The notes beneath the pieces were generated by a model. The model was not told the origin of the DNA, did not search any database, and saw only the letters and a list, made by a program, of their open reading frames with translations. A program made the translations under genes and the position numbers. Positions 34,510 to 54,991 of a stretch of 64,000 nucleotides of DNA are shown one piece after another. The stretch lies in NCBI RefSeq assembly GCF_032854445.1, contig NC_088295.1:41095385-41159384 (forward strand). The letters are read 5' to 3'. Each line of letters begins with the position of its first letter. The stretch's first letter is position 1. This DNA comes from Liolophura sinensis (Eukaryota; Mollusca; Polyplacophora; Chitonida; Chitonidae).

Positions 34510-37500
34510 GTAAGTCATAGCTCTCGTTGTAGTAGTAGTTTACTCCATGTACACTGTCATTCATGGCCCAGTTTTTGTAGTCAGTTAATTGATTTCATTA
34601 CTGCTGTATTTAGATGTTTAACAAAAGTGTTTATTATAACTACCCTGTTCTCTCCAGATAACCTTTTATTACACTTGATCAATCAACAGCATTTGATGAC
34701 TTAATTTTGTATGTTTGTTTCTGATCCAGGACAGGGTTTTACTACGATGAAATCTTCACCAAACATAAGAATGAGTGGGATGAAAATTACCCTGAATGCC
34801 CGGAGCGAGTGTCAGAACCATTTGCTAGGTGCTGTGAGCTGGGACTGGTGGACAGGTGTGAGAAAGTACAGGTGAGAAAGATGTACAGCAAGTTGTGTCT
34901 GTGATATGTGTACCATGGGTGTAGGATCTGCGGGTTACACATGGGCAGGATGTCTGTTGTGACTCATACTGAAATAATGGTGAAAGCTATGTTCAGTAGC
35001 ATGTGACCAATGAAATACAAGTCATGAAGTCATAGACAGTTGTTGCAAATTTTGGCTGTGCATGTATATACATATATGTCATCATTTTGGCTTAAATCGG
35101 TGTAGGCCTAAAAATTGCGTTCAAGGACTAAGGCAAGATTAATCCAAGGCAACCTGTTTCCCACCCTAATTTCCTCTCACCATAGTGAAACCCAAAGCAC
35201 TAATAAAAATTTTAAACTCCAAGCACTCACCATAATGGTGGCTGCCACTGTACAAGTGAAATATTCTTCAGTTCAGCGTAAAACACCAAGCAACAAAGTA
35301 AATAAATCAGTGGCTTTTGTGATGTTTTTTTTTTTTCTACAGGGCAAATTTGGCAGAGTTTTGGGTGTAAATATATCTTCCTTTGTTTTAATAATGGAAA
35401 GTTACTTTTGACACTTGTTTATGTTAGACAAGAACTTTTGAACTGTGTCCCATATGGATTGATCTCAGTCATGATGTCACCTGATTTATATCACAGATTA
35501 CCTATGGCACGGAGGATCTCATTAAAACTGTGCACACAGATCACTATTTGGAAAAGATGAAGACTACAGTGAATATGACAGTAGAGGAGCTTAGGGACCT
35601 CTCACAGCAGTATGACTCTGTTTACTTTAATAATGTAAGTATTTAGGGTACACCATACTGTCCAAAAAAAGTAAGAATGGTACAAAGTATAAATAGAATG
35701 ACCCTGGTCAGAATATGAAAAAAAGACATAATGTTATAACAGATTGTTTTGTCTTCTGTGTATTGCTGTAAAAGTATCTGGTGTAAGGTTTTTCTTGTTT
35801 TTTTTTTGTATCCTTAAAACAAAAATTACTCAGTAAATGAAGTGACATTATCCTGTGTTGAAAGCATGCATACCATGAAAGTTTGCAAAATTCTTGTCTG
35901 TGTTTCAGATGACTTACGAATGTTCTTTGGTTGCACTGGGAGGAGTGGTCGAACTAATGACAAGGATTTTACACAATAAGGTAAGGCGGGCATGAAAATA
36001 AAGGCTATCACCATGCTTGTATGGAAATATAGAAGTAAATAGTTACCTTTCCATATAATTTAAAGGATATATAAAACACAAGTGGGAAATGATGGTTGTA
36101 AAGGATTATTATTTATGCTAGTAACAAAGACATGAATAAAAGAGTTCAACACAGCTTTCATTTTGGGGCATTTTTTATGATGCCTGTTCATACTTGTTTT
36201 CAGTCTGTACTCAGGAATATCCAAGAAGTGACCATCACTTGCATGCGGGGACGCACAGGTGCAGTCTATTTGGCTTAAAGTTAGAATGGAGTTGTTCTCC
36301 ATGAAAAAAGACAATTGTGGCTTTACCGTTTGTGATATCAAAACCTTGTAAACTAAGTGCCTGATTTTAGCACAGAATCATTGTATCATCTGCATGTACA
36401 ATGTAAAGTTTTTCTGGCATTATTATAGTTGCTGATTTCTTTTTTTCAGCTGAGGAATGGTTTTGCTCTAATCAGGTAAACACTGTTTCAATACAAGGCT
36501 AATATATTTTTCCAGGTGTCATTTGTAAATTATGTCAAAATCAGCTTTTAATATTATCAGCCATTTCCAATTTACCCAACTTGGTCAGACTGAAAAAAAA
36601 AATGTTAATTTAGATAACTACAGGTTATAATACCAAACTTCTGGTAATACATTTAAGAGTTTTGATCTTGTGAAGAAAACAAATAAGAAATTGGATAAAT
36701 GTGCTGGAGTCTTGTAAAAGTCACTTGCATATGTTTTTATAATTACCGGTGCCCAAAATTTTGTCCACCACTGAATTACTCATTTTGCTTAATTCTGGGA
36801 ATTTTGTTTGTCTTAAAAGATGTTTTGAGGTGTGTTTGGATTATATCACTCGAGAAAAATTAGATTTCTGCGTCAAGAGTAATACTTTATTTATCTGTAG
36901 AATGCACTTTTTGAATGAAAGTTTAGGTCAGAATGCGCTATTAATTTTTCCGCTGCAGACCCCCAGGTCACCATGCTGAGGAAGACATGGCCTGTGGCTA
37001 CTGCATGTTCAACAGTGTGGCTATAGCTGCTAGGCTTGCTGTAGAGAGTATGGGCTTGGAGAGGTAAGCTCAGACACAAACAGCATCTTATCATACCTGA
37101 TCTCAGACTTGTTTACTGCAGGTGCTACGAAATTCTGCCTTCTGTATTTTGAGAGAAGGGATTTAGCTCTTTCAATGTATTCAAACTAGCGCTGTGAGTT
37201 CAAAGTCAGCTCATGCTGACTTCCTCTCCAGCTGTAAGTGGGAAGGTCTACCAGCAATCTGCGGATGGTCGTGGGTTTCCCCCGGGCTGTGCCTGGTCTC
37301 CTCCCACCATAATGCTGGCCGCCGCCGTGAAATACTCTTGAGCACGGCGCAAAACACCAATCAAATAATTAAATAAATAAAGTATTCAAACTGGTAGTAG
37401 GTCTGGTAGAACTAGTTAGCAACCAGCAGGTATTGGAAATGACCTTAGAGGGATTATTATGGACCATTGCAGACATAAAAGTGATCCAGTTCATTACATT

Positions 37501-40500
37501 ACCTTTGCTTCAGATCATGTACCTTGTTTGTTGGGGACTAACCGGACCATATAATGCTATATGGCCAGACCATATAATGCTGTATGGCCAGACCATATAA
37601 TGCTATATGGCCAGACCATATAATGCTGTATGACCAGTAACTTCATGCATTATTTGTTAAATAGTTAATTGTAAATATAGTACAATGATAATAATATAAT
37701 ATACTAATGGTTTAGTCACAGATTTGTTGTCGTACACATCTTATTAGATTAGTGTACATTGACAGCCTGAACAAATGTGACTTTATATTGTCCTTTTTCA
37801 CAATAAATCAGCTGTGGTTCAATCAATTTATTAATGTAACTTGCAGGAACTGATGTTAAAGATTGATAACGTTTGATTCCTTTGGCAGGGTTTTAATCAT
37901 AGATTGGGATGTCCATCATGGTCAGGCTACACAGAAGACATTTTATGATGATCCAAGGTAATATTAAACTCAGCTTGATGAACATAGATAAAACAATATT
38001 CAGACTATATTCTTCTTGTAAGATTTTGCCATGTTGGGTAAACCTATGTATAATACCTTTGCTGGGAAAATGATACTTTTGCATTTGTCAATGTGTGTTT
38101 TCTTATTGCTCTCGGTTCTCTGTTTGATAAGTCTTCAGAAACTTTGTTTCTTCTTTTATGTTTCTGATTCAAAACATGACAATTTCTGAGGCTATTTTTG
38201 ACCTCATTTGCCTTCAACAAAAATAGGATAGGATATAAGGTATAAAAAATGTATTATGATGATATTCTTTTTGCATGCATATATATACTGTGTGTTGGCA
38301 GGGTATTGTACTTTTCCATCCATCGTTATGAATATGGTAATTTCTGGCCGTCATTGAGGGAGTCAGACTATGACTATATAGGGGAGGGTGACGGGAAAGG
38401 CTACAACATCAACGTCCCCTTGAATAAAGTATGTTGTAAAGTTGTTATTCAGACCTTCTTAATCATGGTTTTCATAATCGGCTTGCATTTGTTGGATTTC
38501 TTAAGGAAAGAAAAGATCCATGTAAAAGTAATTTTTTTTTTACTGTAGATGTATGAAATAAAACATAGTCACTTTAATAGTGAGAAATGTCTGCATTTGT
38601 GAGTTGTATGCTTGAATCAAGCTTCTGTTGCTTTGACTGCAGCTTCAGGTCAGGGGGATAGTCAATTAGATAAGCCCTGTTTTTCCTCAGCCCATTAACC
38701 TATCCCCAGTTGTGTAAGTTGTGTAAACTCCAGTCAGTTAAATGAACCAATTTTTTTTTTTATGAGTCAATCACTGTGGTCTGTTATAATGAGAGCATTT
38801 ACTTCAGTCCCTAAATGGGCCAGATTAAATACACTTAATAAGGCCTATCATACCCACAACCCACGTCAGCCGGTAAACTGTAATAATACCAGTCTTCACT
38901 TTTACATGCTCTCAGTCTTTTTTTCTCTAGACAGGGATGACCAACTCAGACTATCTTGCTATTTTCCAACAAGTTCTTCTTCCAGTGGCCTATGAGGTGA
39001 GCGAAAAACATTTTTATGTGAACAACAAATAAGAAAAAAAAAGTAACAAAAGCAACTCCTATGAATGTTTTCAGTTTTGGTCTAGCCTGTGTCAAATCTT
39101 TAGCATTGGCATGATATTTGGTATTGATGAAAGAAATAAATATGGTTAAATCTTACTTCTTAACAGCGGTTTTTGTTAGAAATGTATGAGTTGTTTGTTA
39201 AAACTGTGATGACTCCACCTGTACATACTATCACAGTGACAAATCAGTTAATATTTTGAGAGCTTCTATGTGCACCCATTTCAAGAAAAAGTGATGAGTG
39301 ACAAAAATTAATAAAAGTTCATTCATGTGATTGATTGCTAACATTTCAGTTCAGCCCACAGCTTGTTTTGGTGTCAGCTGGTTACGATGCCGTCTTGGGA
39401 TGTCCAGAGGTAGAGCAATAAGGGGAGGCAACCCTGAGAGCCAGTGTCAAATATTAGCCACATGCAAGATGAGAATCTTTTAAATATGATTTGTTGCAGG
39501 TGTATGTTGAAGTTATACAACATTGAAATGTCATCCCCCGATGGATACATATATGTGTGTATTTAAACATTTGTCGTAGCCTAAAAGTTACCTTTTAACT
39601 CTGATTTAAATTTTTCTACAGTTGTTATCTCAAATTCAGAATTGTGACTGCGTCTATGGTGATAAGCCATTCAAAAATGACTTAAAACCCAATTTTTAGG
39701 ACATTCCATTTTGATGGACTGTATTAATTGTCACTCAAAAATGTTAAGGTCACCATCTCAACAATAAAAAGGCTTTAGGCTCAGCCTTTATTCAAGGATG
39801 GTTTAATGACGTGTAGAGAATAGTCTTCTGTGGTGTGGTTTAATGGCTGGCATTGGCTCTCTCAGGTATACCTGAATGTACTCTCATTGTGACGTGTATT
39901 TGTAGTCAGGCTATTTATGGCATGTTTTGTTTTGTTAGTTCTCACCAGAGCTAGTTCTTGTTTCTTGTGGAATGGACTGTGCAATGGGAGACCAAAAGGT
40001 ACTGGTTTATTCTCTGGTGTATACCCGTTGCATGCCTGTTATTTAATGAATGTCTGTATACATTTGCCCCTAATCTTAGTCCATATGGTGACCAGAGTCT
40101 GGGGATTGGAGTTGAGAAATTCAGCAATTTTTGGTAACTTTTGATATGGGAAGAGAGTATATAAACATACATGTACATGCATGTGACAGCCTTTATATCA
40201 CTGTTGCAAAGCAAAATTGTGTATTGCAGTAATGACGGAAAGTTCTGATGTTTAGTTGGTATTGCATATCATGTCGTTTTAGGCTTTGGATGCACCGCCT
40301 CCCCTGAATGCAATTAGGTCATCTTGATCTTATTAGTGTGCACTTGCTTACCACTGTTGCTGTTGTGATCTGATTAATTTATGTTCCCTCCTTGTACAGA
40401 TTTTGTAAGTGTGCATGTCAAGGGATATGGTGAAGGTCACTCTCAAATTTAGTTTGTTGTATTCAAGGTCTGAGGCCTGGGTTACCTTTTTTGTGTGTTA

Positions 40501-43500
40501 ATGTTTTTAAACTGGTTGGTAACACTTTATTGTGTGACTTTTTATCCCAACATCCCAATGTATGTTTATTGTTTAAGGACAGTAGATTTTTAGAAACAAA
40601 TATGTTTTTGTGGTGTAAATATATTGGTAACATCAGTTAGCCTTGAAGATCTCAAATCTATAAGAAAATGTTACAAATGATAAGGAAAAATGTAAACATG
40701 TCCAAATCTTATGGAGCAGTAGAGCAGTTTCTAGAGGATTTTTTCCAATTTGCACGTTAACCTGTACACTAACAAACCTTTGAACGTGCTCATTTCAGGG
40801 TGAGATGGAAGTTACACCTGCCTGCTTTCCCCATTTGCTTCACATGGTATCTTCCTTGGCTGAAGGTCGGGTGTGTGTTGTTTTAGAGGTGAGCATCTAT
40901 AGAATTTTTTAGTGGACAAAACTACTCCGATAAATCAAGCATTCTACAACTTAAAATGAAGTGTTTAGATACAAATGTTATATTTACTCAGGTATATGTT
41001 GGTGGTGAGGACTTGTCTCAAGGATATGTGAATGACTTGGCCTGAAGTTGACAGGTCATTGAGCATTGTTGTTTCACAACACAAAAATGAATTGCAGTGG
41101 AATCCATAAAATTACAGAATGGTAGAAATCCTGTAAAAATTAACTGGTTCAATGTTTTTTTGATTTTGCTTTTTGCATTTATTCTTTTGAAACCCATTGT
41201 CAGATCACTGACTTGTACAGTTGAAATCAGGGTCTCTGTGGCCAAGTAGTTGTCGTGCTAGAATGAGGCAAGGATCCTCTCACCAGTGTGGTCATTGTGA
41301 GTTCAAGTGCAGCTCATGCTGACTCCCTCCCCAGTGTACATGTATGTGGGATGGTGTGTTAGCAACCTGCGTATGGTTGTGGGTTCCCCTGGGCTCTGTT
41401 CGGTTTCCTCTCATAGTAATGCTTGTTGACAGTGTGTAAGTGAAATATTCACTGCATTAAACACCAATGATATCAATAAATAGAGTAGAAGTCATAAATC
41501 CTGTATTCCTCCTGTGAAATATGTGTGTGTGGCATAAATAGGAAACACAGTTTTGTCTGCTTTCAGGGAGGATATTGTCTCAAATCTCTCTCAGAGAGTG
41601 TGGCTTTAACTGTCCGTGGGTTGCTAGGCGACCCGTGTCCTGTGATAGGTAAACAGGAGGAACCTAGTCAGAGGTAAGTAATGTGAGAGTTGTCAGCAAT
41701 AAGACTGATGGCCCAGACAGTTTATTTATGTCTTTATAGATGTAAAATCAAACTCACTGTTCATGTATTTCAGTATTAGTAAGTTTCATGATCTAGGAAA
41801 TGGCAGTTGTGCAGTGTGATTTTTATTAACCAAGAAAAGGCCCAATTCACTTAGATTTCATACAGAACAAGTGCCAGTGTATCAATGATTCCACCCAAAA
41901 AGCTCTGATGCACTATGAATTTCATTTAAATGTAAAGGGTCACTGCACTGTGGATTTTATCCAAGAAGTTCTGGCGCACCCTGATTTCATGGTTAACTGA
42001 AGGTCTATCCCATTGTTTTCAGTATAACAGAATCAATCCTGAATGTGATCAAGGGGGTACAGCCGTACTGGAAGTGTTTTCAGTATCAGCAGGGTGACAG
42101 CTTCTCAGACACCTGCCCCTACCCAGAGGTCAATACCTGGCCACCTAAGTGAGTACACCTCTCTTTACTTAGTGGCTACCAAAATGAGTAGACCTGTCCT
42201 TACCCAGAGGTCAACACTTGACTGCCTGAGTGAGTACACCTGTCCTTACCCAGAGGTCAACACTTGGCTACCTGAGTGAGTGCACCTGCCCTTACCCAGA
42301 GGTCAACACTTGGCTACCTAAGTGAGTACACCTGTCCTTACCCAGAGGTCAACACTTGGTTACCTAAGTGAGTACACCTGTCCTTACCCAGAGGTCAACA
42401 CTTGGTTACCTAACTGAGTACACCAGTTCTTACCCAGTGGTCAACACCTGGCCACCTAAGTGAGTACATTTGTGAACTTGTGTGAAATAGCCAACATCCC
42501 ATTACACTTGGGTATTGCATTGCTTGAATTTACCATAATCTTTTTGATGAAGGATTTTCTTTATCAGCTCAGAACATTTGTTAATCTAGTCAGCGCCCCC
42601 AGTGGCATGGCTGATGAGTTGTTTGGTTGCCTAAGCGCTGGGCCAGCACCTCTAGGATGTGTATCAGGTGATTTTCATTTCTATAAAGACATGAGACAAA
42701 ATCTGCTGGACATTACAGTACTTTTCCTTTAGCAACTATCTGACTATCCAAACGTCATTTGATTAAGATGGAAGCAAATTTCCAGATTCACATCTAGGAT
42801 ATCCGTATAAAGTGATCTGAGCTTAAAACCATCTTATCTTCCCTGTATTCTTGTACCTGTTTATACTTCATAACATTTTTTTGCATTAAACACCTTTAAG
42901 ATAAGAGGAGAGGGTTGCTGGGAATTAATGTGTTGTTTTGTATTCCCTAAGGCAGGGTATCATCTTTTCCACCCCAGAGAACAGACCTGAGAAATATGAT
43001 CTTACTGATTATGCCAGGCATGATGTATCTGTGATAAAGGCCATGTCTGAGAGAATAGACCAACTGATAGAGTTTACCTCGCTCCAAGTTGCTCCTTTCA
43101 GGTAAGACCAATCAAGATGGTATTGCATTGGAAAAATCTGAAAATCTGATAGCAGCTAAAGCCACATTCACACTTTAGACTCGACACATCAAATGCGTCT
43201 GGTAGAAACACAAATATGACTTGCGCTATTTCATGTGTTTGTAGCATTCAGCAGATCATCACCTGCACATGGCTTATTAAATAGATTTGTCCTATTTTCA
43301 TTTCATGTATGGAGTTGGACGAGTGGATTCGGTTGTGGCTTAAGTATTATTTCAGACCTCAAGCAGTCAGGAAAAGTAGAAATGTTGTTTCAATAGCAAA
43401 TGATAATAGATTGTCAGTTAATTTTTGCAAGGGTCAAACCAATATAACATGGAATATTGAAAATTGGTTTTGAAAATTTCAGGTGTGTTGGTTTATGTAA

Positions 43501-46500
43501 AACTTGTCATTTTTCTTGTCTGATACTATTTATTACAGAACCTGTTTGGTCTTTGATCCAGACATGAGAGCACATAAAAACCATGTTGATTCGTGAGTAT
43601 ATATATTGATTATTCCCATAAACGTTGAGATTGAGACATACCGAAGGCTAGTAATTTATGGTGTATTGTTTGTTGCACCATGTGCGTTAAAGTTTAATTT
43701 CATTGGTGATGACCTGCGTGTGTGTTAATATTATCAAATTCATGACCTTCACATCTCTTTTCTGTATTAGAATCTATGTTACGGTAAATATCAAAGTCCT
43801 CAATGTGTTTGAATATTTGTGTCTGCAACAGGCAGGCGTTGTTATACTACCAAGTCTAAGTTAGGTCAACCTAATCAAACAGTCAACTTTTAAGAATGAA
43901 ATAATGTAATCCTCCCACACACAAGTCAGCTCTGTGAAATATTTATTACAGCATTTAGAGTGTCCTGCTGATAATTCGTCATGATATGAGGAAATAATAT
44001 TAAGTTAAGTTTATAAGTTACGTTACACCCAAAGCAAAGAAATTAATCTTTTGGAATATGAATCATTTACTGCTTTATTTTTGTTTTTTTTTTAGTTTCT
44101 TTTTTACTTTTTTATTATTTCTTATCTCTGCCTAATACAGCCAGTCATGTATAGTAGTATGATTTAAGGTTTTGGATTTAAATATTTATTATAACAGTTA
44201 ACTTGCATTTACAGAGGTCATCCTGAACGACCTGACCGGATCTCTCGAATCTTTGACCGACATGTGGAGTTAGGCCTCTTCCAGAAGTGTCTCAGAGTGA
44301 AGGTAGAGCTTTTGGGTTGAAGGGTTTATTTGGTAATGGTAAACAAAACCACATTCAACATGTGGTTTGGTTGGAAATTAATATGAATGTAACCAAAGCT
44401 TCATTATTATAATTTGGCCTTTCTTCCAACACTTGTTCACTATATGTTTTGGGTGGAATGTTTTGGTTGTGTCTTTAAAACAACTGCTAAAACAAATGGT
44501 CAGAAGAACTTGTATATACTTCTTTATCATAGCCTTTGGCAACAGATGTTGCAGAAGATAATAAAGCTGTGCTGTAATTCGCAGAATGTCTGCGGAAACT
44601 GACATACCGTGTATTGTCATATGATGAAGCTTCTGCCTATTTATCTGATGTACTTTCATTTACCCTAATTCATCAACCTTTTCACACAGGAAAGAGCAGC
44701 TTTTAGTGCAATATATGCACATTGTTAATTTGATTTTGGAGACAAAACTATACTGATTGTGTGGGCCAATTTCAGGACTTCACAAAAAGTACAATTGTGT
44801 CAGTCAACACAGAATAATACCTTCAGAATATGCTTGAATAAAGACCTTGCAACATACGAAAAGGTTTAAGAATTACAGTACATTCCATGTTCTTTGATGG
44901 GTAAAATGTGATATTATTTACCACACTACTACATGTATGTATATTAAAAACACATAAGTTGACAATACAACATGTATTACTGCTTTAATTGATATCATAC
45001 CAGTGTTTTTGCCCATGTTTCTACAAGTGTTCATTTTATGTAAATAGATGTATCCTACAATAACACATCTTATGATTACGTTTCTTTGATAGGCAAGGGA
45101 AGCAACTGAAGAGGAACTTGGTTTTGTTCACAGGTACTTGTTATTTTCATTTTCACTTTCTGTGACAAGCCAGTATTTATCTACAATTTTGTTAATATCT
45201 GATTCTCAACATTGTCCTGCCTCGAGGTATAAAAGTGCATATTTTAACAGAAGGAACAAAACAGTACATGTATGTAGGAGGCATCCAAATTGTGTATCAT
45301 CCAAATTCAAAGTTTCATAAATGTATGATAAGTTTTTGTACTATTTAAATTCTTCAGAAAAGCAACGAGGGCCTATTCGTACTTAGAATGAAACTGATAT
45401 GTAGTATATTTTCAACAGTGAAAATTGTCTGCTTGAGTCCCCTATTATATATTGTACATCAATTCTATTGTATTCTGAACCAGTATACCTTGAATGTTAA
45501 GGCCTTTAAACATGAAATAGTTCAAGATAACTTTTCTAAAGCTTTCTTGCCGTGATACCAAGGCTTTTACTCTGATCATAAGAGTTACTGTAGATGATCT
45601 ACATTGCAGCCAGTGTAAGTACATTTATTTGTTACATCATCAGGTCCCACTATATTGATGAAATGCAGGGGCTGGCAAGCATGTCTCCCAGAGAACTGTA
45701 CAAGCTTCAGGATGATTACAATTCTGTCTACATTTGCCAGGTAAGTACTCACCAGTTAATTAACCACCAGTTAAACCTGTAAATTGCAGTATTTCATATG
45801 TACATGTATTGTTGATTTTCCTCCTTTCCTTTATGGAAATGATGTGTACAGCTGAGCTTTGTGCAGTACCCCATACCCCCGCGTCCTCCTACCCCCCTAC
45901 CACCACCACCACCACCACCACCACCACCACCACCACACACATCTTCCTCCTCCACATACATAACAGTTCTGATGTATTCTTCCAATCTTCAGGAAAGTTA
46001 TCACTGTGCTGCTCTGGCAACTGGAGGAACCCTCAATGTGGTTGATGCTGTCCTGACAGGAAAGGTTGGTTCTGAACATTTCCTGCTTAATATATGCTAA
46101 TGCATGATTTATTGTATTTTTGATTGTTGATTAAATAGGCTTGAATTGAAGATTTCAGAGAAAAAAAATCGATATTCTTTGATCATATTATATTTCCTGT
46201 ATTTAACAAGAATGGCTCAAATTATTGGCAGTTCATGACTTCTTTTCCTTTCCCTTTTTCACTAGGCTCAAAATGGTGTGGCAATTGTCAGGTAAGTAGT
46301 TTGTAAAATGTATGATGTATTTGATAAATTGATACTTTGTAAATATAATTCTTCATGTATACATATACTCTAAATCTTATGTGAATAAAATTCTTCATGT
46401 ATACATATACTCTAAATCTTATGTGAATATAACTCTTCATACATATACTCTAAATCTTATGTGAATAAAATTCTTCATGTATACATATACTCTAAATCTT

Positions 46501-49500
46501 ATGTGAATAAAATTCTTCATGTATACATATACTCTAAATCTTATGTGAATATAACTCTTCATGTATACATATACTCTAAATCTTATGTGAATATAATTCT
46601 TCATGTATACATATACTCTAAATCTTATGTGAATATAACTCTTCATGTATACATATACTCCAAATCTTATGTGAATAAAATTCTTCATGTATACATATAC
46701 TCTAAATCTTATGTGAATAAAATTCTTCATGTATACATATACTCTAAATCTTACGTGAATAAAATTCTTCATGTATACATATACTCTAAATCTCTATTTT
46801 ACCTGAACAGCATCCTCATCAAAGACTTATTTGCTTGTATATGTATTTATTAACTAGTGTGATTGGTGTTTAACGCTCAACTGAAGGGTATTTCACCTTA
46901 ATATACAACTATCATTATGGTGGGAGTAATCCTGGAAGATCCTGGAGGAAAGTTTATGTGCAGAAATACCTAAATCTACTTGTTGTTGTTGTTGCTGTTG
47001 TTTACAGACCCCCTGGTCACCATGCTGAACCTCACACTGCGATGGGTTTCTGTTTCTTTAACACTGTCGCTGTAGCAGCAAAGTACGCACAGAAGAAATA
47101 TGCATTGAAACGGTATGTTGGTGGAACATTTATTAGACAAATTCTGAAATCTTTTTTGTACATGTATGGTGTATAAGGAACTTGAGGTGCAATTTTTCTT
47201 TTGCAGATATCATCAATGTACATAGAACTGAAACTATGTTTTCTGATGTCAGTAATGTTTGTAAATATTACAACTGTTCCGAGGCACAACACATTATACT
47301 CCAGGAAACAGCTGACAGACTTCGTTGCACAGTAAACGAAATGGGTACTTATGGTATGGGTTAAATCTGTCCATACTTTTGTGTACTACAATGAAAGTTA
47401 GCAGGTTGGAACAGTCTGATAACATAGATTAGGCCCAGCTTAATTTGATCATAAAGCGGCACAGCTTAGGGGCCACTTTGAACACTGACTGTGTTATACA
47501 GGTCAGCCCTCCTCTTGTTTCATCATTAAAAGATGAAAATAAAGTGAGTATGACTTCATATATCCCCATCTGTTTCCTCCAGATTATTGTAATTGACATC
47601 CCCGTCTTTCCACAGCGTCTTAATTCTGGACTGGGATGTTCACCATGGTAACGGAACACAACACATGCTTGACGATGATCCAAGGTTAGATGTTCTGATT
47701 TCTGTTCTGTCTAACAATATTTTTTGTGCATTTAATCACGAATCTAGATTTTCATTCATGATATAACATCTGATGAAAGCCATATCTGCTTCCCGGCTAC
47801 ACATGATCTCACCACAAATTACTGAAAAACTGCTGATGTGATCTTAACACCTCAATTATTCATTCTTTCATTTATTCATAAAATATCATATTTAAATGTT
47901 GCTTTTACACATTATACATGTTTGACCCAACTTGTTAAATTCTTGCAAAGCAAACTACATGTGGTTTAAAAATAATAATACATATTTGATCTTGTTTGTT
48001 AAAATCTGTCTGAATTTGTTTTCAGTGTCCTCTTCATATCTCTTCACCGGTTTGACCATGGGTATTTCTACCCTGGTTCAGAAGATGGTGACTATGGAGT
48101 TGTGGGCGTGAAAGAGGGGAAGGGTTTTAATGTCAACATTCCTTGGAACACAGAAAGATTCTCTGGCAAAGTATGTGATATCATTGTTATAACCTGCACA
48201 ATTTTGATATCTTAATTACAAATTGATATTCTACAGTTTGCTGTTACAAAGTAAAGGGGGTATATCTTGAGGGTTAGGGAACCTGTTTACTTAAGCTTGA
48301 GTTTCTTATCAAGAACAAGTGCCTACCTCTAAGGATAATTGTGATTTATTTATTAATCCCTTGTTAAGCATTGAAGTGATGAGGTGATTGCCTCTTGTTT
48401 AATTAAGTACCCATTTAAAGGCTTATTAAGTAAGAAATGAGTAGACGGTGTGATTAAGCCTCTGTGTACAAGTTAAATGAGCAAAGAAATGCCCATTAGA
48501 GCAATTTGTCAGGTTTCTCATAACCCTTCTGTATAACAACTCTTACAATTAACAAAGATACGTGGCCACGTTTGCTTGACAATTAACCTAATACATGCAC
48601 ACACTCACACACACACACACACACATGTATATATATGTATGTAGAACAAGGCATTACTGAACTGAAATTAAGGAAGCTTTCTGCTCTGTTTCAGCACGGC
48701 ATGGGGGATTCTGAATACATCACAGCTTTCCAACAAGTGGTGATGCCTATAGCATATGAGGTATGTGACCAGGTGTTAGCGGGTAGATTTATCAACTAGA
48801 TAATGCTATGCATGTAACATTAAACATCATAAAAGTCATAGCTGATTTGTTTTCAGATATCCTGTTCATTATTTATGTTGACAGATGTGTGTGTTAGGTT
48901 AATATACACTGTGACACGTGCAAATACAAATGTGACGCTTTACGACTACGAGGGAGGAGACAGGTATTTGGTGATGTAAATCTGCTGCATTTAAAAATTC
49001 TGAATTACTGTATTTTGCTCAGGTTCAAAGTGTAGAAAGGATGAAGTAATTTAGGAATGACAGTGTAATATATTTCCCTTTCACTTAGTTTATTAGTAAT
49101 GTATAAGTAAATGATTGTGTATATGTTTTCTGCACAGTTCTGCCCAGAGTTGGTGCTGGTGTCAGCTGGATTTGATGCAGCACGAGGGGATCCTTTGGTA
49201 GGTACTCTCAGCCGTCATGGCTCATGCCATCTATTCTGCAGTGACAAGATTTGGACTATAAGCACAAGGCATGCATGAGTTCAGTCCCATCATTGCACAA
49301 GGAAATTGCATGGAGTTTTCCCCTCTATCAGTTTTCATAGCCCCAGAAACCATAACTTGATGGCGCTTATGGAGCTGTTAGCACTCTTACAGAACCTTAC
49401 ATTGAAGACAACTTGTCTTTCACCAGTATGATATCCAAGTTATGACATGTGGGAAATTTTCTTCATAACATTGACAAAGGTGTGTAGTTTTACACTGGGC

Positions 49501-52500: not shown

Positions 52501-54991
52501 ACAGTAAACCAGATTGAAATGTGTTTTCAAAATACACTTGTATAATTATGCAGTATTTTGTGATCTTCCACTAGTACATACTTCAAAATGCATGCGCAAA
52601 GAAGTGAAACATGTTATAACAAAAGTTACTTGTCTGACTGTGTGATGTGTTTAGCTGCCGAAGTAATGATTGTTGGACTGTTGTAATATATAAATATATG
52701 GAATTTAGGAGTAAATGCCAGACCTATTCATCGGTTACAGCACAAACACAGATGGTGAGAACTCTGGTGACAGGAAGGAAGAAGATCCACTGGGAGCTGA
52801 CATTACTACAGGTAAGGCTCCTGAATTTTCCCATCAGAGAGTATTCAGTTTCATGCTTTTCATATAAAATGCTACAGCGTGGAGTTTAAAACCAGACCAA
52901 AGATGACTGTTGTTCATTCCTGACGTTACAGCAGGTTAAACTCAAAACCTTTAACCCATGAGGGTATTTTGTCCCATTCTCTGAAGACTGTTGTTCTGTT
53001 GTTCTTGTTTTGCAAGTCAATCATGACTAGGTTGTCATATATTAAAGTATGAGATTATATCTTATGTAATTGAATTACCCAGTTGCTGCTTACATGGCTG
53101 ACAACTGTCATAAACACAGCTATTTTGAAGCCTGACTTGTATATAATGTTTCCAGAGGCAGCAGATGGAGCCTGTGGTGGGTCAGTCTCAGCAGGTGTCT
53201 TCCTGGACCTACTATCTCAGCAGGTTAGTTTTGTCTTATGTCCATGAGGCCAGATCAGAACTTTCTTCTGACTAGTTTCAAACCAAGGAGTAAGAATGTA
53301 AATCCAAGAAAAGATAAGGTCTTCATTTCAACATTAACTTTATGCCATTTACAAAATTATTAAACAAATTATTTTGTACATAATGGACACTCATTGAAGT
53401 GGATAGTCATGCACTTGTCTAAATTATATTTTCAAATTTGCCAGCTACATTGACTTAGCAAAGTGCATTGATTTCCTCTGGCCTGTTCCTTATTTTCTGT
53501 CTTTTTTTAAACATCTGTCCACTATTGACTATGTTGTGTGTAGAATAAAATACCTAGATTCAACTGAGTAAGGCACCATTCAATCGATCAGCCATTCAGT
53601 GTAATTATTAAAGAACTAAGATTATATCTTATGTGTTGAGGTAAATATTTGTGTTATGTGGACAGGGTTATGATGCTATGTATGCCGTCCAGCCAGTTCC
53701 GTGGTGTCCACATCTGGACACTGTCCAGCCTCTCCCTGCTCAAGGCCTCAACACTGCAGACCCTTGTGAAAATTGTGGCAATGTGGGAGAAAATTGGGTC
53801 TGCCTGGTCTGTTATAAGGTACATATAGGTGGCTGTGAATAGTAGTAATCAGAGTAATGAAGTAGTTCAATGGAACATGTGCTTATGTGGATATACCCTT
53901 ATGGGCTGCCTTGGTAATGAATACAGTTCTGGCTCACTTGGTGAATACAACTGTAACAGCAGTAGTAATAAATTGCCTACATTACTGGCTACATGTAGTT
54001 ATAGTTCAAGCAAGGAACCTGCTGATGTGACATGTTGGACAGAGTGCCAGCCTCATAAGGAGAAGATTCAGGGCTCATTCCCATGTTGAGTCAAATTTAA
54101 AGACATAAAAATCATTAACCTTTTGCTGCACATTGTCATAGAGAATCACCTGGTCGTGATGTGTTACATCACCTCTCTGTTTTACGTTGACAGGTGTACT
54201 GCAGTAGGTTTGTGAACGAGCACATGGTGTTACACGGTGTCACAGCGAACCACCTGGTCGTCCTTAGTTACGCTGACCTGTCAGTATGGTGTTACGGATG
54301 TGACACCTATGTGGATAACCAGGTGTGTCTTTTATTCTTGTATAATTTTTATTGCTTCGTTGCCGTTTGACATAATTATTATGAGGACAGTTATTTGTGG
54401 TGCTAATGATGTCTCTCAGTTTATCTGTTGGATCTACATATAAGTACTCAAATGTTGATAAAATATCAAGAAAGTTTTTTGCTAAGAAACATCTTTGGAA
54501 GGATCTGTAGGCCTGATTCAGTTTTGTACCTGTACAAGTCATGTCTTTGTATATGTATGTCTCCTCCGAAGCATGTCTTCACAACCGCTCACTAATCCTT
54601 GCCAGACACACGGAATTGTGCTCAAGGAAGATTTTTACATTCCATAGATGGATTTGTCTGTCTTTTGATTGTTTGTTTGATCCTCTTGCCCTTTTAAAAA
54701 AAAAAAAATTGTTAGCTTTCTCTCCTCTTAACTAGTATAGTTAAGAGGAGTAGTATCTATTTTTCATTGTTTTAATATCTTTCCTTTTAATGAAAGAATT
54801 TGAGTGATATTTTTGGTAACAAATGAGACTATCTGATATACTTACAAGTAATCATAGTTTGAATGTGTGATTTGATTCCTCTCTTACTAATACATTTCCT
54901 TATCCTTATATTACAGATTATCCATGCTGCTAAAAGTATGGCACATTTGTCTAAATTTGGATCAGCCTTGCCAGGATCTTCCTCAAGATGA
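32259..54991 (+). CDS. HDAC6: HDAC6, tandem-domain cytoplasmic deacetylase with ZnF-UBP
   Basis: HDAC6 removes acetyl groups from tubulin, cortactin and other cytoplasmic proteins, and binds free ubiquitin C-termini for aggresome transport. The exons are 32254-32409 (ATG 32259), 32716-32966, 33910-34047, 34472-34509, 34730-34871, 35497-35634, 35909-35980, 36450-36475, 36959-37063, 37889-37957, 38302-38428, 38931-38996, 39350-39409 (or 39939-39998), 40799-40888, 41567-41673, 42023-42148, 42952-43101, 43539-43592, 44215-44302, 45093-45133, 45644-45740, 45993-46064, 46266-46291, 47008-47112, 47616-47684, 48026-48170, 48695-48760, 49138-49197, 50035-50124, 50825-50928, 51483-51550, 51874-51961, 52741-52811, 53156-53223, 53666-53818, 54194-54322, 54917-54991. 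The coding sum is 3525 nt, an exact multiple of three, giving 1174 residues (human HDAC6 is about 1215). The ATG has G at -3 and +4. No frame break was found. Confidence 0.96.
34378..34432 (-). mobile_element. SINE family 1 tail fragment
   Basis: Reverse complement of the family tail (ATTGGTGTTTTACGCTGTGC) in an HDAC6 intron. Confidence 0.8.
34730..41673 (+). CDS. HDAC6: HDAC6 catalytic domain 1 (CD1)
   Basis: This is the first class IIb deacetylase domain. The catalytic pair PPGHHAE is in exon 36959-37063 (His codons 36969 and 36972). Zinc ligands Asp and His of DWDVHHG are at 37908 and 37914. The third zinc ligand Asp is in the alternative exon pair (39386 or 39975). The catalytic Tyr of GGY is at 41573-41575. 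All core residues are present, so the domain is predicted active. In vertebrates CD1 has narrower substrate use than CD2, linked to a Lys gatekeeper. Here that position depends on which 60-nt exon is used. Confidence 0.95.
35215..35310 (+). mobile_element. SINE family 1 3' fragment
   Basis: Contains ATAATGGTGGCTGCCACTGT and GAAATATTCTTCAGTTCAGC with an A-rich tail. Confidence 0.75.
37188..37381 (+). mobile_element. SINE family 1, 5'-truncated
   Basis: Begins at the B box (GCTGTGAGTTCAAAGTC) and runs to the (AAAT)n tail. A stretch near the tail (TATAAG) is missing. Confidence 0.88.
37543..37636. repeat. 23-bp palindromic tandem repeat in an HDAC6 intron
   Basis: Four copies of ACCATATAATGCTATATGGC-type units. 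Each contains the inverted repeat CCATATA-ATGC-TATATGG. Confidence 0.9.
39350..39409 (+). CDS. HDAC6: HDAC6 CD1 alternative exon a (Glu gatekeeper)
   Basis: A 60-nt, phase 0-0 exon bounded by ACATTTCAG and GTAGAG. It encodes [20 protein letters not shown]. The zinc-ligand Asp codon is 39386-39388. The last residue, which aligns with the gatekeeper of the family (Leu in CD2, Lys in vertebrate CD1, Met274 in HDAC8), is Glu. The GDP triplet normally before it reads GCP here. Confidence 0.9.
39399..39938 (+). promoter_or_regulatory. HDAC6: Intron between the two alternative CD1 exons
   Basis: This 529-bp spacer separates the alternative exons and should hold the elements that select between them. 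Exon a's donor is GTAGAG (weak), and its read-through would stop four codons later. The spacer is long enough for splicing, so exclusivity, if real, would need competing RNA structure or repressor binding rather than steric clash. Confidence 0.3.
39939..39998 (+). CDS. HDAC6: HDAC6 CD1 alternative exon b (Lys gatekeeper)
   Basis: A second 60-nt, phase 0-0 exon lies 529 bp after exon a, bounded by TTTGTTAG and GTACTG. It encodes [20 protein letters not shown], the same structural segment as exon a. The zinc-ligand Asp codon is 39975-39977, and the gatekeeper position is Lys, as in vertebrate CD1. It is open, in phase and spliceable at both ends. Use of one exon at a time is inferred, because inclusion of both would duplicate a core strand. 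Confidence 0.85.
41226..41484 (+). mobile_element. SINE family 1, full length, diverged
   Basis: Head, B box (GTGAGTTCAAGTGCAG), body and shortened tail in an HDAC6 intron. Confidence 0.82.
42023..43592 (+). CDS. HDAC6: HDAC6 inter-catalytic linker (exons 42023-42148, 42952-43101, 43539-43592)
   Basis: This follows CD1 with a helix containing [12 protein letters not shown], typical of the end of class II domains, then a linker with a helical segment (about [11 protein letters not shown]) before CD2 opens with T-C-L-V-F-D. In vertebrates the linker packs CD1 against CD2 and binds dynein. The 42023-42148 exon ends at a donor that has been tandemly amplified (42149-42465). Confidence 0.9.
42100..42465. 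repeat. 46-bp tandem repeat including the 5' splice site of an HDAC6 exon
   Basis: The last ~30 bp of exon 42023-42148 plus its donor are repeated. GTGAGT motifs occur at 42149 (real), 42230, 42276, 42322, 42368 and 42460, with decayed ones at about 42184 and 42414. Spacing is 46 bp except for a first truncated unit. Each unit keeps T-A-C-C-C-A-G-A-G-G-T-C-A-A exon sequence. Confidence 0.95.
43539..50928 (+). CDS. HDAC6: HDAC6 catalytic domain 2 (CD2)
   Basis: This is the second deacetylase domain, the main tubulin deacetylase in vertebrates. Catalytic His-His of PPGHHAE is in exon 47008-47112 (codons 47018 and 47021). Zinc ligands of DWDVHHG are Asp 47635 and His 47641. The third ligand Asp of SAGFD is at 49174-49176, the catalytic Tyr of GGY at 50831-50833. 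The gatekeeper is Leu (49195-49197), as in other CD2 domains, consistent with broad activity. Exon lengths mirror CD1. Confidence 0.96.
45897..45936. repeat. (CCA)n microsatellite
   Basis: About 12 CCA/CAC triplets lie 56 bp before the acceptor of HDAC6 exon 45993-46064. They produce poly-Pro/poly-Thr/poly-Gly open frames that are not genes. Confidence 0.95.
46340..46795. repeat. 42-bp minisatellite in an HDAC6 CD2 intron
   Basis: About 10 copies of a 42-bp unit (core TTCATGTATACATATACTCT) lie in the intron after the 26-nt microexon 46266-46291. The unit is a multiple of three, which explains spurious open frames on both strands. Confidence 0.95.
46857..46945 (-). mobile_element. SINE family 1 3' fragment
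   Basis: Reverse complement of tail and end of body, beside the 42-bp minisatellite. Confidence 0.75.
48600..48627. repeat. (AC)n microsatellite
   Basis: A run of CA dinucleotides in the HDAC6 intron before exon 48695-48760. Confidence 0.95.
49255..49575 (+). mobile_element. Old SINE-like repeat family 3
   Basis: Contains TTCAGTCCCATCATTGCACA and ACTTGTCTTTCACCAGTATG and ends GAGCATGGCGTTAAACAGCT with AAATAAAC. Related to 9935-10282 and 14560-14903. Confidence 0.55.
51483..53223 (+). CDS. HDAC6: HDAC6 CD2-ZnF linker (exons 51483-51550, 51874-51961, 52741-52811, 53156-53223)
   Basis: A short acidic/Gln-rich disordered linker follows the last CD2 helix (Q-K-K-Y-W-K). The long SE14 repeat of human HDAC6, a cytoplasmic retention signal, is absent. 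Phases 1, 2, 1, 0 join correctly. A possible additional cassette exon sits at 52198-52329. Confidence 0.85.
52198..52329 (+). CDS. HDAC6: Possible cassette exon of the HDAC6 linker
   Basis: A strong acceptor (CCCTCTCTCCCATGCAG ending at 52197) precedes 132 nt that are open in the frame demanded by the upstream exon (phase 2 in) and end at AA|GTGATA in phase 2 out. The segment could therefore be included or skipped without frame change. It would add 44 residues containing [11 protein letters not shown]. The donor is mediocre and I recognise no homolog. Confidence 0.3.
53666..54991 (+). CDS. HDAC6: HDAC6 C-terminal ZnF-UBP (BUZ) domain and stop
   Basis: This domain binds the free C-terminal Gly-Gly of ubiquitin. 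Exon 53666-53818 encodes W-C-P-H-L, C-E-N-C-G and N-W-V-C-L-V-C-Y. Exon 54194-54322 encodes [19 protein letters not shown] and V-W-C-Y-G-C. The Cys/His set for three zinc ions appears complete. The Arg after the V-Y-C motif and the Trp and Tyr of the W-C-Y motif, which contact the ubiquitin tail in human HDAC6, are kept. The last exon ends S-S-S-R then TGA at 54989-54991. Confidence 0.95.

Follow-up and report, generated by a model that had tools for sequence, protein, structure and literature searches.

Splicing is known to retune enzymes through mutually exclusive exons. In ketohexokinase, tandem homologous exons of this type exchange one segment of the enzyme to give KHK-A or KHK-C. The enzyme considered here is HDAC6, a deacetylase with two catalytic domains, and the cellular role of its first domain (CD1) is still debated. 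The portions of PMC5454378 on which we draw describe the gatekeeper residue as a hot spot for substrate specificity in the HDAC family. According to those portions, K330 determines the specificity of zebrafish HDAC6 CD1 for C-terminal acetyl-lysine, E274 gives HDAC10 its preference for polyamines, and the remaining human HDACs have Leu or Met at this position. Changing E274 of zebrafish HDAC10 to Leu reverses its specificity, with polyamine activity down 20-fold and acetyl-lysine activity up about 100-fold (PMC5454378). The same authors regard the gatekeeper as necessary but not sufficient, and describe added bulk opposite it, provided by F105 and Y225 in human CD1 and by the PACE helix in HDAC10 (PMC5454378). 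The PEG and PKG motifs are read in the same way in the available part of PMC11532494.

We analyzed a 64,000-nt stretch of DNA (the window) on contig C1 of a 609-Mb mollusc genome. Contig C8 of this genome has a tandem series of eight matches to PF14830, a molluscan hemocyanin family, which points to a mollusc. The gene in the window is mollusc HDAC6. It has two class II deacetylase domains in tandem and a C-terminal zf-UBP domain, the latter assigned to the gene by its location. The closest solved relatives of the window CD1, as found with phmmer, are HDAC6 proteins; among single-domain solved entries, zebrafish HDAC6 CD1 (5eef) scored 392.8 bits, ahead of HDAC10 at 379.7 bits. A scan against NCBIfam gave no match. 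The CD1 model has 334 amino acids and consists of ten common exons plus one of two alternative exons, designated a and b. With either exon the catalytic set is complete: PPGHHA, DWDVHHG, the zinc Asp, and GGY with the catalytic Tyr. The exons of the second domain (CD2) lie between about 44,200 and 50,930 and were read singly, without assembly into one model. The common exons of CD1 and the zf-UBP match are as follows.

34730-41673, + strand: CD1 of HDAC6 as a whole (splice model)
34730..34871, + strand: CD1 exon 1 of the model (TGFYYDEI...CEKVQ), with Tyr at the human F105 position (splice model, alignment)
35497..35634, + strand: CD1 exon 2 (splice model, alignment)
35909..35980, + strand: CD1 exon 3 (splice model, alignment)
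36450..36475, + strand: CD1 exon 4, 26 nt, LRNGFALI (splice model, alignment)
36959..37063, + strand: CD1 exon 5, PPGHHA catalytic His pair, with Tyr at the human Y225 position (splice model, alignment)
37889..37957, + strand: CD1 exon 6, DWDVHHG zinc ligands (splice model, alignment)
38302..38428, + strand: CD1 exon 7 (splice model, alignment)
38931..38996, + strand: CD1 exon 8, the common upstream exon, 22 residues (splice model)
40799..40888, + strand: CD1 exon 10, the common downstream exon, GEMEVTPAC...VVLE (splice model)
41567..41673, + strand: CD1 exon 11, GGY with the catalytic Tyr (sequence)
54191..54322, + strand: zf-UBP match (PF02148, 40.3 bits; G000:C1:41149575-41149706), which marks the gene as HDAC6

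Introns of the gene contain two minisatellites. One, at 46338-46793, has 11 copies of a 42-nt unit with 94% matches; it is open on both strands, with ORFs of 145 and 118 amino acids, and would mislead a gene finder. The other, at 42173-42468, has 6.4 copies of a 46-nt unit, and because 46 is not a multiple of 3, it gives the same peptide in all three frames.

Between the common upstream and downstream exons are two candidate alternatives for the segment that contains the zinc Asp and the gatekeeper. An earlier note on this DNA had described them as two 60-nt exons, both phase 0-0 with GT-AG sites, and we found the coordinates, lengths, frames and splice dinucleotides to be correct. The zinc Asp, said there to be kept in both, is codon 13 of each (39386 in a, 39975 in b). 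The exon that corresponds to them in CD2 is indeed also 60 nt and single, and is the only such exon found in the window besides a and b.

39350..39409, + strand: alternative exon a, Glu gatekeeper, 20 residues, AG before and GT after (splice model)
39939..39998, + strand: alternative exon b, Lys gatekeeper, 20 residues, AG before and GT after (splice model)
49138..49197, + strand: CD2 counterpart exon, Leu gatekeeper, single copy, 60 nt (sequence comparison)

Exons a and b are identical at 33 of 60 nucleotides and 11 of 20 residues, and are 529 nt apart. They have the layout of mutually exclusive exons, being adjacent and homologous, equal in length and phase, and each with its own splice sites. 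The nine residues that differ are the gatekeeper and eight others, so charge is not the sole change between the exons. From a to b, the changes near the zinc Asp are A to C, Y to M and A to C, and P becomes Q just before the Lys. The sequence SCGMDC in exon b (39963-39980) places one Cys three residues before the zinc Asp and another one residue after it, as in the class I CG.D arrangement, with possible redox sensitivity. The 2,051-nt region matched only itself in the assembly, in a search that skips simple repeats and very common words, which argues against a second genomic copy or a haplotig.

To judge whether exon b could be a chance open reading frame, we collected all 60-nt segments preceded by AG and followed by GT from 126,706 bases of sequence (the window plus nine genome loci, both strands). 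There were 862 such segments, 271 of them open, and for five the score against exon a or against the CD2 exon exceeded 9. These were exon b, with a score of 61, and four other HDAC gatekeeper exons (exon a, its counterpart in a paralog on contig C7, and the two CD2 exons), with scores of 86-105. The next best segment scored 9, and this gap rules out a chance origin for exon b.

We also asked whether exon b behaves as a sequence under constraint. In a neutral simulation with a transition bias of 2, the other exon as ancestor, and the observed number of nucleotide differences (27 between b and a, 30 between b and the paralog exon), at least 11 of 20 residues were kept without a stop codon in 7 of 20,000 runs starting from exon a and in none of 20,000 starting from the C7 paralog exon. 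The values of pS/pN were 0.70/0.37 between a and b and 0.97/0.35 between b and the paralog exon, so that the synonymous differences of b are near saturation in both comparisons. The pattern of changes in exon b points to constraint at the protein level. The protein sequence of b has nonetheless diverged faster, with a pN of 0.35-0.37 compared to 0.11 between a and the paralog exon, and this could mean that constraint on b is weaker than on a.

The faster protein change is one reason to consider that exon b may be a duplicate that has fallen silent or is decaying and is rarely or never included in mRNA, and its weak acceptor and modest donor (see below) fit with such a fate. A decaying exon, however, would not be expected to combine near-saturated synonymous sites with 11 of 20 residues retained, no stop codon, and intact phase and splice sites. 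The neutral simulation reached this degree of retention in only 7 of 20,000 runs, and the fit of b to the Pfam deacetylase domain is no worse than that of a. We regard decay as quite improbable, and exon b is very probably spliced into real mRNA.

CD1 scored 285.0 bits against the Pfam deacetylase domain with exon a, 290.9 with exon b and 239.1 with neither. Including both exons gave 300.0 bits, the highest of the four forms, in two stretches. Either exon joins 38931-38996 to 40799-40888 in frame, and the frame also stays open when both are included or both are skipped; the reading frame therefore enforces no choice between them. The open frame and the top Pfam score would be compatible with a and b normally occurring in the same mRNA, which would insert 20 residues into CD1. 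Such a protein would contain a core strand and the zinc-Asp loop twice, whereas CD2, the C7 paralog and the solved HDACs that we aligned all have one copy, and the extra Pfam bits probably come from one stretch being matched twice. Joint inclusion is very unlikely to be the normal state, and we consider that exon b is probably used in place of a.

Duplication does not appear to be a general habit of this gene. We compared the eleven CD1 exons with the region 32000-55000, looking for intronic twins of the same phase and similar length; ten were judged, the exon at 41567 being left out, and only for the gatekeeper exon did an intron yield another copy. The same search recovered the CD2 counterparts of eight of the ten exons but not of the other two, so its sensitivity is incomplete.

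To put the splice sites of the two exons in context, 16 of 20 further acceptor positions and 16 of 19 donor positions entered for the HDAC6 gene, those with AG or GT at the stated place, were scored. Weak acceptors are common for regulated exons, and the acceptors of a and b scored 1.5 and 2.4, below all 16 others (3.3-11.8). A second scoring, with three fewer donors, gave acceptor and donor scores of 0.6 and 5.3 for a and 2.0 and 4.4 for b. The acceptor score of b was reached or exceeded by 21 of 100 AGs in the region and its donor score by 11 of 149 GTs, b's own sites included. Because scores at this level are frequent in the region, the weak sites are not distinctive. Donor strength by itself also proves nothing: the single exon of the C7 paralog has a donor of 12.6, compared to 5.3 for a and 4.4 for b, and that of the single CD2 exon (-0.2) is weaker than either.

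The 529-nt spacing argues against simple steric exclusion, and the donors, which are GT and by eye without a U12-like consensus, argue against exclusion by incompatible U2 and U12 introns. A coarse whole-intron duplex test among the three introns, with 60 shuffles per pair, gave no signal of intron-intron RNA pairing (z of -0.23, 0.42 and 1.92). Neither the spacing, the reading frame nor the intron class forces a choice, so splicing regulators would be expected to set it. The intron after exon b contains three copies of an RBFOX-type motif, each identified by motif scan and with a role in splicing that is conjectural.

40029..40034, + strand: TGCATG, RBFOX-type motif, first base 31 nt past exon b
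40178..40183, + strand: TGCATG, first base 180 nt past exon b
40412..40417, + strand: TGCATG, third copy in the intron after b

The first two copies lie within 185 nt past exon b, and in shuffled sequence this had a P value of 0.0066 at 200 nt, 0.015 at 250 nt and 0.047 at 300 nt. TGCATG was one of ten motifs scanned, and the enrichment fades as the interval is lengthened. The full motif is absent from the two introns before b, each of which has one copy of the core GCATG (at 39109 and 39920). The genome contains an RBFOX-like exon, with a match of 86% over 36 residues of the query. A comparable arrangement is known in Caenorhabditis elegans. In unc-32, exons 7a and 7b are mutually exclusive, UGCAUG in the intron after 7b is used by RBFOX, and this motif is needed to choose 7a in neurons, according to the part of PMC3585155 available. 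The position of the motif, in the intron after the second exon, is the same here; the protein is different, and the direction of choice is established for unc-32 alone. Control of the exon choice by RBFOX is a lead that these motifs make suggestive only.

The last residue of each exon had been placed on the family gatekeeper, Glu in a and Lys in b, and phmmer alignments to solved HDAC6 and HDAC10 proteins bear this out. In these alignments, HDAC6 has Lys at this position in CD1 and Leu in CD2, in zebrafish and human alike, and zebrafish HDAC10 has Glu. The human Lys lies 248 and 128 residues past a Phe and a Tyr, which is the spacing expected for F105 and Y225 if the Lys is K353. The window CD1 has Tyr at both of these constricting positions, and within it Lys is the gatekeeper in exon b only, exon a having Glu. 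Because Glu is the polyamine gatekeeper of HDAC10 in the published passages cited above, the pair carries both of the charged gatekeepers known in the family.

Vertebrate HDAC6 CD1 (K330 in zebrafish, K353 in human) is thus the best solved match and resembles the exon b form in its Lys and, with Tyr at the F105 and Y225 positions, in its bulk. It differs in that the aligned zebrafish and human domains have only Lys and the window gene also has a Glu form, and in that exon b has Q for P and C, M and C around the zinc Asp. HDAC10 (E274 in zebrafish, E272 in human) resembles the exon a form in having Glu followed by GEM, and the upstream GMTNSDYLA is common to both. Unlike HDAC10, however, the window gene includes zf-UBP and a second domain (CD2) that carries deacetylase motifs. 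The two-residue L1 insertion (the PACE helix) of HDAC10 is also absent from the window CD1 (phmmer alignment of window residues 4-325 with HDAC10 residues 8-331). The window CD1 does not group with HDAC10, scoring lower with it than with HDAC6 CD1 in phmmer and pairing with the mollusc C7 paralog in a tree of seven rows.

With its Lys and the Tyr/Tyr bulk, the exon b form would therefore share the specificity features of human CD1; the exon a form would have the charge of HDAC10 without its helix. On this basis, the case for the Lys form as a C-terminal-lysine type is stronger than that for the Glu form as a complete polyamine specialist.

The nine differences between a and b can also be read in another way, in which exon b is genuinely used as an alternative but yields a CD1 of low catalytic activity or altered regulation, with the charge of the gatekeeper being incidental. 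That nine of 20 residues differ, and not one, fits with this interpretation. The A to C, Y to M and A to C changes near the zinc Asp would affect activity, stability or redox sensitivity, and together with the P to Q change beside the Lys they could lower activity. In addition, the Cys of SCGMD in exon b sits where the class I enzymes at two loci of this genome (L004 and L007) have QCGAD; this Cys may correspond to the S-nitrosylated Cys262 of HDAC2. Studies of HDAC2 S-nitrosylation reportedly concern Cys262 and Cys274. CD1 with exon b nevertheless has a higher Pfam score than CD1 with exon a, it retains the zinc-ligand motifs and the catalytic Tyr, and its Lys is the same as the vertebrate CD1 gatekeeper. 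An incidental charge seems unlikely to us, though distinctly less so than decay of exon b. Judging from the published gatekeeper chemistry, the chances that the specificities of the two CD1 forms differ as proposed are about even.

Contig C7 carries another HDAC6-like gene with two domains, at about 58.344-58.367 Mb of G000 on the minus strand (loci L010, L002 and L009). The intron positions of its CD1 match those of the window CD1. It has a single 60-nt gatekeeper exon of 20 residues with Glu, and its second domain has Leu. The possibility that this paralog has a paired exon as well was rejected, as no twin was found in the 425-nt intron after its gatekeeper exon. There was no zf-UBP on C7 among the matches listed. 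The paralog CD1 scored 403.4 bits with HDAC10, compared to at most 381.2 with single-domain HDAC6 CD1 constructs, and in the alignment it, too, is without the two extra L1 residues of HDAC10. In the seven-row tree it groups with the window CD1, with support of 100/98. The first modelled CD1 intron of the paralog appears to be GC-AG.

The 24 Pfam deacetylase matches in the genome correspond to about eight loci. We read the gatekeeper by eye at six of these (all but L003 and L006), with one gene for the cluster on contig C13. Among the six, exon b alone was seen to have Lys, Glu was confined to exon a and to domain 1 of the C7 paralog, and every other gatekeeper read was Leu or Met. Glu is the simplest ancestral state given its presence in exon a, the paralog and HDAC10, and these few sequences suggest that the Lys of exon b and of vertebrate CD1 arose later. 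The C13 cluster includes a further class II-like deacetylase (G000:C13:14258983-14259862), in which Pfam positions 99-298 fall within 880 bases, with far fewer introns than in HDAC6, and similar, partial matches lie about 8 kb beyond it.

The earlier note had proposed an alternative exon pair that swaps the gatekeeper, and this is upheld by the homology, phase and splice sites of the exons, the constraint on b, and the intact CD1 around them. We consider it a credible alternative exon pair; the substrate switch is an inference from it. We propose that a tandem duplication copied the CD1 exon encoding the zinc-Asp strand and the gatekeeper loop, and that the copies are used alternatively, most likely one at a time in each mRNA. 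Exon a would give CD1 an HDAC10-like Glu gatekeeper and exon b the Lys of vertebrate HDAC6 CD1, with the choice set by splicing regulators, possibly RBFOX acting through TGCATG after b. The change of charge at the rim would then move CD1 from cationic substrates, such as acetylated polyamines or similar molecules, to substrates with a free carboxylate, such as C-terminal acetyl-lysine. We lean towards this account as a whole. A switch between substrate classes by exon choice is plausible. The most specific version, in which splicing reverses the charge of the CD1 gatekeeper and toggles the domain between an HDAC10-like enzyme for cationic substrates (e.g., acetylated polyamines) and a C-terminal acetyl-lysine deacetylase, with CD2 unchanged, is offered more tentatively, as somewhat less likely than not.

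The exchange differs from that in KHK-A and KHK-C in its target, a deacetylase, and in that a single specificity residue would change the sign of its charge. A literature search with partial coverage, by titles and the starts of abstracts among the matches listed, found no published exon pair like a and b in HDAC6 or another deacetylase, which is weak evidence of novelty. That Glu is the recognised polyamine gatekeeper of HDAC10 makes the proposed switch more specific. If the account is correct, a natural Glu/Lys swap in an otherwise identical domain would be a ready-made experiment on gatekeeper function, and the splicing patterns would show where the animal wants each form of CD1. Such a gene would further hint at a route by which a single ancestral domain could have given rise to the vertebrate enzymes specialised for polyamines and for C-terminal lysine.
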